Of a DNA stretch of 64,000 bases, positions 29,510 through 32,962 are shown piece by piece. The position numbers and the translations under genes were made by a program. A model generated the notes under the pieces. That model made no database searches and was not told where the DNA came from. It worked only from the letters and a program-made list of their open reading frames with translations. The stretch's first letter is position 1, and each line of letters begins with the position of its first letter. Location of the stretch: positions 1 through 64,000 of the forward strand of contig OMYF01000005.1 of NCBI GenBank assembly GCA_900315205.1, read 5' to 3'. The DNA comes from an uncultured Acidaminococcus sp. (GTDB lineage Bacteria; Bacillota; Negativicutes; Acidaminococcales; Acidaminococcaceae).

Positions 29510-31138
29510 ATGACGGAAACCAATATTGAAATGACAAAGCCGGAAGACTCTGCCATTACTTCATTTGAAGATTTAAACATTGAATATAAAATTTTGACGG
29601 CCCTGAAAGATATGGGGTTCGAAGAACCGTCCCCTATCCAGAAGGGCGCCATCCCTCTGGCCCTTGCAGGGGAGGACATCATCGGGCAGGCCCAGACGGG
29701 CACGGGTAAAACCGCAGCCTTCGGCATTCCCATCGTCCAGTCCCTGGATGAAAAAGACCGCCATGTACAGGCGCTTGTCATGTCCCCGACGCGGGAACTG
29801 TGCATCCAGGTCGCCGAAGAGATCGGCAAGATCGGACGGACCAAACGGATCCGTGTACTGCCGGTCTACGGCGGTCAGCCGATCGAGCGCCAGATCCGCA
29901 ACCTGCGCGGCGGTGTCCAGGTCGTGATCGGCACGCCGGGACGCCTCCTGGACCATCTGCACAGAGGGACGATCAAACTGGACCATGTCAAGTTCCTCGT
30001 CCTTGACGAAGCGGATGAAATGCTCGATATGGGCTTTATCGAGGATATCGAGACAATCATCAAACAGGTTCCTGTGGACCGCCAGACGATGCTCTTTTCC
30101 GCGACGATGCCCCGGCCCATCCTGAGCATCAGCAAGAAATATATGCGGGCACCGAAGCTTGTGGCCATCCACAAGGAAATCGTCACGGCGCCGACCATTG
30201 CCCAGTACTACTATGAGACCCGGGACAAGGTGGACGGTCTCTGCCGCATCCTCGATACGACGGATGATTTCAAGATGATCATCTTCTGCCGCACCAAAAA
30301 GGGTGTGGATGAGCTCGTCATCGCCCTTGCCACGAGGGGCTACCAGGCAGAGGGGCTGCACGGCGATCTGAGCCAGAGCCAGCGTGACCGCGTAATGAAG
30401 AAGTTCCGCCAGAACGAGGTGGATATCCTTGTCGCCACCGATGTGGCGGCCCGCGGCCTCGATATCGACAATATCACCCACGTGGTCAATTTCGATGTGC
30501 CCCAGGATCCGGAAAGCTACGTCCACCGCATCGGCAGGACGGGCCGCGCCGGCAATACGGGCGTGTCCATCACCTTCATCACGCCCCGGGAATTCCGTCA
30601 GCTGAAACTGATCGAACGCACCATCAAGACAAAGATCATCCGCGGCGTCCTGCCGACGGACGAGAACGTCCTGGAACGGCAGCGGGAACAGATCATTTCC
30701 AAGATGCAGAGCGTCCTGGAGCAGGATAATTTCCATGATTATCTGCCCATTGTCGAAGCCCTGGAAAAGGATTATGAGATTTCGGATATCGCCGCTGCCG
30801 CCCTGAAATTCATGCAGGAAGGCAATAAGGCGCTGGAAACTCCGGAAAGCAAGTCCGATCTGCCCGATGCACTTTCCAATACGGGTGCCCGTCCGGGCAT
30901 GGTCCGTCTGTTCATCAATGTCGGACGCAGTGCCAAAGTGACGATCCGCGACATCATCCAGACCATTTCCATCGAGGCTGAGATCCCGCCGCGCAGCATC
31001 GGACGGATCAGTATGTATGACAAGTTCAGTTTTGTCGAAGTTCCGGCTGAATCCGCGGAAAAAGTCATCGGCGTCATGCACCGGAACACGATCCGCGGGT
31101 ACCGCGTCAATATGGAGCCTGCCAGAGCCAGAGAGTAA
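29510..31138 (+). CDS. DEAD-box RNA helicase, DeaD/CsdA-like
   Basis: This ATP-dependent RNA helicase of 542 residues has AQTGTGKT (Walker A, about 61-68), the DEAD box (LDEADEML, about 165-172), the SAT motif and HRIGRTGRAG. A C-terminal RNA-binding RRM-like domain (from about 460, RLFINVGRSAKVT) gives it the DbpA/CsdA architecture, involved in ribosome assembly and mRNA decay. It starts with ATG at 29510 after an AGGAG site and precedes hflX by 6 bases. Confidence 0.92.
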   Translation: MTETNIEMTKPEDSAITSFEDLNIEYKILTALKDMGFEEPSPIQKGAIPLALAGEDIIGQAQTGTGKTAAFGIPIVQSLDEKDRHVQALVMSPTRELCIQVAEEIGKIGRTKRIRVLPVYGGQPIERQIRNLRGGVQVVIGTPGRLLDHLHRGTIKLDHVKFLVLDEADEMLDMGFIEDIETIIKQVPVDRQTMLFSATMPRPILSISKKYMRAPKLVAIHKEIVTAPTIAQYYYETRDKVDGLCRILDTTDDFKMIIFCRTKKGVDELVIALATRGYQAEGLHGDLSQSQRDRVMKKFRQNEVDILVATDVAARGLDIDNITHVVNFDVPQDPESYVHRIGRTGRAGNTGVSITFITPREFRQLKLIERTIKTKIIRGVLPTDENVLERQREQIISKMQSVLEQDNFHDYLPIVEALEKDYEISDIAAAALKFMQEGNKALETPESKSDLPDALSNTGARPGMVRLFINVGRSAKVTIRDIIQTISIEAEIPPRSIGRISMYDKFSFVEVPAESAEKVIGVMHRNTIRGYRVNMEPARARE

Positions 31139-31144
31139 TATCCC

Positions 31145-32962
31145 ATGGAAAAGATTATTTATGGAAAGACGGAAGGGATCAAAAAAAATATCCTGGACCG
31201 TCTGGAAAGCTTATACGACATGACTGTGGAGCAGGGCCGGCTGATCTCTGAAGAGCTGGCTCTGCTTCTGCGGGACCTTTCGGCCGCCATCGGCCGCGAG
31301 GTCTCTATTTATGTAGACCGCCGGGGCCGGATCGTCAATGTATCCGTCGGTTCTGACAGCAACGTGTCCCTGCCCGATTCGGGCGTGCGCAGGAGCCAGT
31401 GGCGTCTTTCAGGCATCACCTGCATCCATACCCATCCCTCCGGAGCAGCCCGTTTGAGCGGTGTCGACATTTCCGCACTGAAAGCGCTCCGCTTCGACGC
31501 CATGGCAGCACTCGCATGGCCTTCGCCGGACGCGCCGCCGCTCCTTGCCTTCGGACTCATCACTGATTTCAGCGAGGATCAGAAACCGCTGGTCCAGGAG
31601 TTCGGCCCTTTTACAGCACGGGAAGCAGCCGGACTGCCCTTTGGGAACATCCTTGCCGCCGTGGAGCGGATCCTGACCAAGAAGACGCATAACCACAGGA
31701 CGGAAGAGGGCAGGGAACGGGCCATGCTTGCTGCCCTGAGCTGGGGGGACAGCAAATCCCGCTGGACCGCGGAGGATTCGATTGACGAGCTCGCGGAGCT
31801 TGCAAAGACCGCCGGAGCGGAAGTCGTCGGCCGCTTCATCCAGGCCCGGCCCAAACCGGATCCGGTCTTTTTCATCGGCCGCGGCAAGGTCCAGGAAATG
31901 TCCCTTTTTGCCCAGCAGGAGCAGGTGGATCTCTGCATCTTCGACGATGAGCTCTCGCCGGCCCAGCAGCGCAATCTGGAACAGGCTCTGGGAGTCCGCA
32001 TCGTGGACCGCACAGGGCTCATCCTCGATATTTTCGCCCAGCGGGCAAGGACGAGCGAAGGCAAACTCCAGGTCGAACTGGCCCAGCTGAAATATCAGCT
32101 GCCACGGCTCATGGGACAGGGCCTTTCCCTTTCCCGTCTGGGCGGCGGCATCGGTACGCGCGGACCCGGCGAAACCAAACTGGAAGTCGACCGCCGCCGC
32201 ACGCGGGACCGGATCGCGCTCCTGGAGGAACAGATCGAAAAAGTCAAACAGACACGGAAGACCCAGCAGCGTTCCCGCACCAGGAACGAAATCCCGCAGG
32301 TCTGCCTCGTCGGATATACGAATGCCGGCAAATCGTCCCTGCTGAACCGTCTGACCGGTTCCGATGTCTACACGCAGGATCAGCTTTTTGCGACCCTCGA
32401 TCCGACCACGCGGCAGCTCGTCCTCCCGAATAAAGAACGCTGTACGCTGACGGATACGGTGGGATTCATCCAGCGGCTGCCGCATCAGCTCGTCGCAGCC
32501 TTCAAATCGACACTGGAAATCGTCAGGGACGCGGATCTGCTGCTCCATGTGGTGGACTGCAGCTGCGAGCTCTATCCGGAACAGGAGCTCGCGGTCTACG
32601 CCGTCCTGCATGAACTGGGTGTGGAAAACAAACGCATCCTCACTGTGTATAATAAGATCGATAAACTGCCGGAACATGCGGCTCTGCCGGCCTGCAGGAA
32701 TGGGGAAGACTCGGCGGCTGTTTCGGCCCGTACCGGAGAGGGGATTCCCCTGCTGCTTGCCAGGATCGCAGAGCTGCTCAATGCCGGCAAAATCGAGCTG
32801 ACACTGCTCATCCCTTACACGGATACAAAGACAGCCGCGTCACTGCATCAGCAGGCCACGGTCCTTTCTGAAACGTATGAAGAAAAAGGCGTCCGCATGA
32901 GAGTACGCCTGGAACAACCCCGTGCAGCCGCGCTGCAGCACTATATCATCGATGACCGCTGA
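31145..32962 (+). CDS. hflX: GTPase HflX with an N-terminal JAMM-like extension
   Basis: HflX binds the ribosome and splits or rescues stalled 70S particles under stress. The 605-residue chain is longer than E. coli HflX (about 425) because of an N-terminal region of about 180 residues. That region contains His95-x-His97-x10-Asp108 in CIHTHPSG...SGVD, the spacing of the JAMM/MPN metalloprotease motif, with Glu 52 in REVSIY as a possible fourth member. The GTP-binding N-domain starts near 195, and the G-domain has GYTNAGKSS at about 390. The N-terminal extension appears typical of clostridial HflX; whether it is catalytic is unknown. Confidence 0.9.
   Translation: MEKIIYGKTEGIKKNILDRLESLYDMTVEQGRLISEELALLLRDLSAAIGREVSIYVDRRGRIVNVSVGSDSNVSLPDSGVRRSQWRLSGITCIHTHPSGAARLSGVDISALKALRFDAMAALAWPSPDAPPLLAFGLITDFSEDQKPLVQEFGPFTAREAAGLPFGNILAAVERILTKKTHNHRTEEGRERAMLAALSWGDSKSRWTAEDSIDELAELAKTAGAEVVGRFIQARPKPDPVFFIGRGKVQEMSLFAQQEQVDLCIFDDELSPAQQRNLEQALGVRIVDRTGLILDIFAQRARTSEGKLQVELAQLKYQLPRLMGQGLSLSRLGGGIGTRGPGETKLEVDRRRTRDRIALLEEQIEKVKQTRKTQQRSRTRNEIPQVCLVGYTNAGKSSLLNRLTGSDVYTQDQLFATLDPTTRQLVLPNKERCTLTDTVGFIQRLPHQLVAAFKSTLEIVRDADLLLHVVDCSCELYPEQELAVYAVLHELGVENKRILTVYNKIDKLPEHAALPACRNGEDSAAVSARTGEGIPLLLARIAELLNAGKIELTLLIPYTDTKTAASLHQQATVLSETYEEKGVRMRVRLEQPRAAALQHYIIDDR

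Follow-up and report, generated by a model that had tools for sequence, protein, structure and literature searches.

A probable JAMM/MPN-type domain at the N-terminus of the ribosome-splitting GTPase HflX in an uncultured Acidaminococcus and other Bacillota

Work on HflX has dealt with its part in ribosome splitting as a GTPase and with its roles in stress and in the tolerance of antibiotics. Passages of a study of the mycobacterial protein describe how ND1 of HflX pushes 23S helix H69 aside when the subunits are split, and how a short N-terminal extension (39-58 residues) rests on uL16 and H38 and extends as far as the H69-71 junction (PMC12493154). The JAMM motif has been published as EXnHS/THX7SXXD, which AfJAMM, PfJAMM1, Rpn11 and AMSH have in common, and the JAMM site was likened to that of thermolysin (both from parts of PMC300881). 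The nearest published parallel to the locus described here is the RadC-like domain that some DinG helicases carry at their N-terminus (PMC11981726, in the portion of that review used here).

We analysed a window of 64,000 nucleotides (contig OMYF01000005.1 of an uncultured Acidaminococcus) that encodes an HflX with a long N-terminal extension. The protein has the whole GTPase core in common with the HflX of E. coli, Listeria and Mycobacterium (TIGR03156). As in the RadC-like DinG proteins, a RadC-type domain stands in front of a nucleotide-hydrolysing partner, which in our case is a ribosome GTPase and not a helicase acting on nucleic acid. Unlike the known JAMM/MPN+ metallo-isopeptidases, the extension is fused to a ribosome-splitting GTPase, several of its genomes showed no ubiquitin-like partner, and it is a predicted hydrolase. 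The short N-terminal extension of the mycobacterial type is a different element and was rejected as its identity on length. All 10 listed solved HflX-type sequences aligned from query residue 191 or later, so none of those listed covers the extension. Among the matches listed in open-licence PMC, no paper joined HflX to a JAB, JAMM, MPN or RadC domain; 'HflX' with 'JAB domain' gave no paper there, and the papers found with HflX and 'jamm' were unrelated. HflX on the one hand and JAMM domains on the other are familiar, and this search suggests that the joining of both is new.

Layout, conservation and spread of the extension

The hflX gene lies at 31145-32962 on the + strand, like all features below unless stated, and encodes 605 amino acids. 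TIGR03156 (GTP_HflX) matched residues 206-544 (1.2e-143; 478.3 bits against a cut-off of 216.75), which places the protein in the HflX family, and Pfam detected GTP-bdg_N, GTP-bdg_M, MMR_HSR1 and HflX_C. The core with GTP-bdg_N, GTP-bdg_M, the GTPase and HflX_C spans residues 210-598 according to Pfam (31772-32938). The closest named record was from an uncultured Acidaminococcus (68% identity; Bacillota, Negativicutes). The sequence-only reading had spoken of clostridial HflX, which does not hold for Clostridium in the strict sense.

Directly 5' of hflX, positions 29510-31138 encode a DEAD-box helicase with DbpA RNA-binding and DeaD dimerisation domains, and the two ORFs are separated by a 6-base gap. 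Homologues of this helicase were found at 34 of 138 loci, all from the same genus, family or order. On the 3' side follow a PF06838 (YnbB-like) gene, with homologues at 90 of the 138 loci (short flanks), and then lexA on the opposite strand.

The extension comprises residues 1-165 (31145-31639), with a helical lead-in (residues 1 to about 28) and a JAMM/MPN-like domain (about 28-165; MPN chains cover model residues 30-166). A variable linker, residues 166-205 (31640-31759), joins it to the core; this linker showed little conservation in the class alignment and a pLDDT below 50 at residues 166-192 of the domain model. The alignments of 24 short HflX proteins to the window HflX started at query residue 176-211, so that the first ~180 residues are extra.

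Residues 93-108 read C-I-H-T-H-P-S-G-A-A-R-L-S-G-V-D, and the extension has the signature E52-Xn-H95-T-H97-X7-S105-XX-D108 with the exact JAMM spacing. The sequence-only reading had named His95-x-His97-x10-Asp108 and an upstream Glu52; all are present as claimed, and Ser105 comes in addition. Glu52 (31298-31300) is the JAMM Glu and the predicted general acid-base, His95 and His97 of the His95-Thr96-His97 stretch (31427-31435) are predicted zinc ligands, Ser105 (31457-31459) is the JAMM serine, and Asp108 (31466-31468) is the predicted third ligand. Chance alone hardly accounts for the motif: when the stop-to-stop frames of the whole window (228 with 100 aa or more) were searched for H[ST]H-x7-S-xx-D, one other frame was returned. 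It lies on the - strand, has 432 aa and contains HTHVAMTLFRSYAD, a second fit to the JAMM spacing with no Pro after HTH.

The class alignment comprised 71 HflX: one named record and 70 proteins from the class search, these being the 30 best matches plus 40 chosen for family spread rather than every class match. E52, H95, H97 and S105 were each identical in 69 of the 71, and D108 in 70. The two departing rows (L066 and L067) are without the extension, and the motif was identical in all 69 extended proteins. We built a profile (A1) from 68 extensions, with L066 and L067 removed beforehand and L023 and L002 also left out. This profile matched 76 of 398 genomes drawn from the phylum, 73 of them through HflX-type and three through RadC proteins; HflX itself (PF16360) was present in 306 genomes of a 398-genome draw from this phylum. 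Proteins from 67 of the 73 extension genomes were fetched (left out: G237, G249, G348, G398, G468 and G512). The HflX core followed in the same frame in 66 of the 67, the remaining one (L117) being cut by a contig end, and the motif was intact in 59. When the class and phylum sets and one viral_contigs protein (L108) were taken together, the exact motif with the upstream Glu was found in 128 of 136 rows, which correspond to 125 of 133 distinct proteins once L080, L081 and L083 (the same loci as L052, L054 and L050) are dropped; the RadC rows (L146-L148) were excluded. The intact share is somewhat overstated, because five of the six unfetched genomes fall in families f73 and f117, from which every protein fetched was degenerate. 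Among the 125 intact rows, Glu52, His95, His97, Ser105 and Asp108 were kept in 100% and Thr96 in 99%. The conservation of Glu52, His95, His97 and Asp108, which the sequence-only reading had put forward as its check, was thus confirmed in both the class alignment and the combined set.

Outside the phylum, two Fusobacterium records had an extended HflX with an intact motif, HflX being annotated in one of them. In Fusobacterium animalis the extended gene (L284; pSB029A, 153558-155360) is flanked by a shikimate kinase gene on one side and a gene with a WYL domain on the other; the record, of 219 kb, is classified as a plasmid. Two scans of viral_contigs gave one extended HflX, L108, and the 24 short HflX mentioned above, and a search of phages gave no match. 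One genome (G005) has two extended copies (L043 and L044), both with intact motifs.

The motif was lost in 8 of the 133 proteins (L137 and L139-L145), and a ninth degenerate protein (L237) was found among long HflX frames. In these nine proteins H95 was kept in none, H97 in one, S105 and D108 in three each, and E52 in four. Four residues were kept in all nine: Arg59 and Gly61 of Arg59-x-Gly61 (31319-31327; 97% and 100% of the 125 intact rows), Leu88 in the RLSG stretch before HTHP (31406-31408; 87%) and Asp118 (31496-31498; 94%). We placed 116 of 209 HflX cores in a tree (EXT 57, SHORT 50, DEG 9). The degenerate proteins fell at four places, and EXT required 12 changes, of which 4 were forced by well-supported branches. 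The extension is therefore patchy, and L270, a close relative beside L088, has none, so HflX can work without it. The pattern is consistent with an old fusion that was lost repeatedly, transfer being a possible alternative.

Relationship of the extension to JAMM/MPN domains

No match above cut-off in Pfam or NCBIfam named the extension of the window protein, and the extension alone gave no NCBIfam match. The window protein scored 12.4-14.5 bits with Prok-JAB (PF14464), under the gathering cut-off of 25, and 12.8-12.9 bits with RadC (PF04002), under 22.1. Three HflX frames reached 22.0-23.3 bits with Prok-JAB, also under 25. RadC (UPF0758) has the JAMM signature HxHP..S..D in common with the extension and gave its best profile match and one of its best fold matches, but the RadC proteins seen carry HNHPSGDP and a UPF0758_N half, whereas the extension carries HTHP. 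UPF0758_N was not listed by Pfam for the window protein at E<=1 and was present in three RadC controls. Without UPF0758_N and with a score under the RadC cut-off, the extension is not RadC proper, and by Pfam's rule it is not Prok-JAB either. Single-sequence Pfam scans of the 68 members at E<=1 returned Prok-JAB in 60 (best 5e-4) and RadC in 25 (best 7e-4), together with scattered weak matches to unrelated families (e.g. SutA-RBD in 5, best 3.1e-3). Three true RadC proteins matched Prok-JAB at 1.5e-4 to 7.3e-4, no better than the extension members.

The three RadC proteins retrieved by the extension profile from the 398 genomes (per-genome E 3.1e-5 to 9.2e-4) were confirmed by Pfam RadC at 2.8e-42 to 1.3e-50. 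With hhalign, the extension matched RadC with a score of 31.8 and a probability of 55.6. The highest score among 40 column shuffles was 18.5, and the accepted pair RadC and Prok-JAB gave 29.6 and 52.3. By this comparison, the extension is no farther from RadC than RadC is from Prok-JAB. Its own match to Prok-JAB was weak (score 21.5, probability 5, null maximum 16.7). The degenerate subsets alone gave scores of 10.6-17.1 against RadC and Prok-JAB, within the nulls, and matched only the intact extension. Searched against the PDB, the extension profile returned 22 sequences at E of at least 0.025, of which 20, including the top three, were AMSH-like proteases, STAM-binding protein, Rpn11-like proteins or Prp8; a lone extension sequence returned nothing relevant there.

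The AlphaFold2 model of the extension, built from a 3-sequence alignment, had a mean pLDDT of 59.9 and a pTM of 0.60, and a full-length model did not improve it. With this modest-confidence model, Foldseek placed structures whose titles name COP9, proteasome, Mov34 MPN or RadC at 20 of the ranks 1-21 (E 2.5e-3 to 3.4e-2), the title at rank 12 (9is6) not being telling; RadC 2qlc had a probability of 0.99. MPN chains aligned with the model over residues 30-166. VIA gave Z values of 7.8 for a chain of the 26S proteasome, which we take to be Rpn11, 7.3 for PfJAMM1 and 7.1 for RadC, all below 8, a level that possibly reflects a mere common arrangement. The 50 VIA rows were mostly JAB/MPN proteins or complexes containing such, chain identities within complexes being in part our assumption; 2d30 (cytidine deaminase) was a non-JAB entry, and 2kks, 9is6 and 9ea4 had no telling title. 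The model thus appears to fit JAB/MPN structures best, with modest strength, and the fold comparison foreseen in the sequence-only reading points to JAB/MPN and RadC.

Several modest lines agree and the motif is invariant, and for this reason we hold the JAMM/MPN identity to be about 90% sure: the extension is in all probability a JAMM/MPN+ (JAB) domain related to RadC and fused to an ordinary HflX.

Candidate roles at the ribosome

We predict, at even odds, that the extension is a metallo-hydrolase positioned at the ribosome by HflX. The domain would bind Zn2+ via H95, H97 and D108, with E52 activating water. HflX would dock it on the 50S subunit, at the intersubunit face beside ND1 and close to uL16, helix 38 and the entrance of the peptidyl-transferase centre. 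The place near uL16 and helix 38 is proposed by analogy, because the short mycobacterial extension, which is unrelated, lies there; on the same comparison, a domain at the N-terminus of HflX may be expected at the intersubunit face, close to the A site and the peptidyl-transferase entrance. There, on ribosomes that have stalled or been split, it would hydrolyse a peptide bond or a related acyl bond, with the nascent chain, peptidyl-tRNA or a ribosomal-protein tail as examples of possible targets.

The main rival is a non-catalytic module, in which a zinc-binding JAMM fold serves docking or sensing, the ligands hold a structural metal, and the role is the regulation of HflX (its GTPase or its ribosome affinity). 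We consider this possible and lean against it. MPN- domains without catalytic activity commonly occur in complexes of eukaryotes, and the domain was retained with a lost active site in nine proteins at four places of the tree, with R59, G61, L88 and D118 kept throughout. On the other hand, Glu52 and Ser105 were invariant in all 125 intact rows and decayed together with the ligands (kept in 4 and 3 of the nine), and in JAMM enzymes these two residues act in catalysis and not in metal binding, according to passages of PMC300881. The lineages that lost the active site and kept the domain with these four residues suggest that the domain is not only an enzyme and also has a second, non-catalytic role. 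The pattern suggests constraint at two levels: catalysis, which a lineage can give up, and docking or fold, which is retained. Within the metallo-hydrolase reading, such a role, probably docking or fold stability via R59-x-G61, L88 and D118, would explain why some lineages keep the domain after active-site decay. In the modest-confidence model R59-x-G61 was placed in a predicted turn between two strands, and its role may therefore be purely structural.

An action on nucleic acid, with the JAMM metal site attacking a phosphodiester of rRNA or tRNA, is unlikely. The host protein binds rRNA, and for RadC, the closest family, we know of no proven activity; to our knowledge, however, no JAMM nuclease has been established. 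The review of DinG, in the portion concerned, leaves the activity of the RadC-like domain open, but its DALI analysis gave metalloproteases and not nucleases (PMC11981726). We regard as quite unlikely that the domain, like other bacterial JAB proteins, processes a ubiquitin-like protein (Ubl) of the ThiS/MoaD type or acts on it as an isopeptidase. Bacterial JAB genes often stand beside E1-like and Ubl genes, as part of the text of PMC1779556 describes, and our search for the PF02597 (ThiS/MoaD type) family found a small protein in 3 of 9 genus genomes (G048, G110 and G118). The other six, including the window's own, had none, their only PF02597 match being a frame of 702-762 aa, at completeness values of 90% (G000), 85% (G584) and 99% (G073, G082, G086 and G098). 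The HflX motifs were nevertheless intact in G073, G082, G086 and G098 (L011, L010, L015 and L014), G000 had no Prok-JAB match and a separate RadC, and none of the eight scanned neighbours of the window hflX was a Ubl or E1 gene. Ubl deconjugation is therefore unlikely as a general role, since six of the nine genus genomes show no small ThiS/MoaD-like modifier. Of what the sequence-only reading had proposed, the JAMM/RadC-type domain gained from conservation and fold comparison, and the isopeptidase version was weakened. Finally, a chance motif in an unrelated extension, to which the weak single-sequence Pfam scores would correspond, is most improbable: the motif was kept in 125 of 133 proteins, the profile retrieved RadC, hhalign against RadC exceeded 40 of 40 shuffles, and the fold matches were to JAB/MPN. 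This candidate was rejected on conservation and hhalign.

Taking the metallo-hydrolase further, we tentatively suggest that HflX-JAMM could be a rescue factor with a built-in hydrolase, which would act near the peptidyl-transferase centre during or after splitting and cut there the nascent chain, the ester bond of peptidyl-tRNA or the tail of a ribosomal protein; lineages with a decayed site would leave release to other enzymes and retain the domain as a wedge. If so, one protein would both separate the subunits and resolve or mark the blocked 50S. If the HflX of many Bacillota and of Fusobacterium bears a metalloprotease site, the rescue of ribosomes in these bacteria may involve cleavage, a step that would be invisible to the E. 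coli, Listeria and mycobacterial models, and RadC-type JAMM domains, whose function is unsettled, could gain a defined ribosomal setting. The near-invariant catalytic set and the natural broken-site versions offer a direct genetic and biochemical test. The window genome also encodes a separate RadC, Prp and RqcH (NFACT_N), so the extension does not replace them; a replacement of the protease Prp in particular was not supported, Prp being present in the same genome.

Other HflX frames and genomes

Some long HflX frames did not match the extension profile. Those of f83 were rejected as extended HflX and correspond to fusions with Dus (tRNA-dihydrouridine synthase). Natural HflX-Dus fusions were found in frames of 740-830 aa in three f83 genomes (L233 in G320, L234 in G571 and L239 in G285), where the HflX frame continues into the Dus domain (in the stretch of L233, Pfam Dus matched at 1.1e-27 at residues 513-604); G399, also of f83, was counted as such a fusion by frame length only. 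The long HflX frames of f43 gave no match to the extension profile, and neither did L238, to which the full-length query aligned from residue 103 on. In the class search, groups f7, f28, f31, f35 and part of f15 gave only weak matches, such as other GTPases give, and seem to be without HflX. PF16360 was also absent from the six f7/f15 genomes of this weak-match kind shown in the phylum draw.
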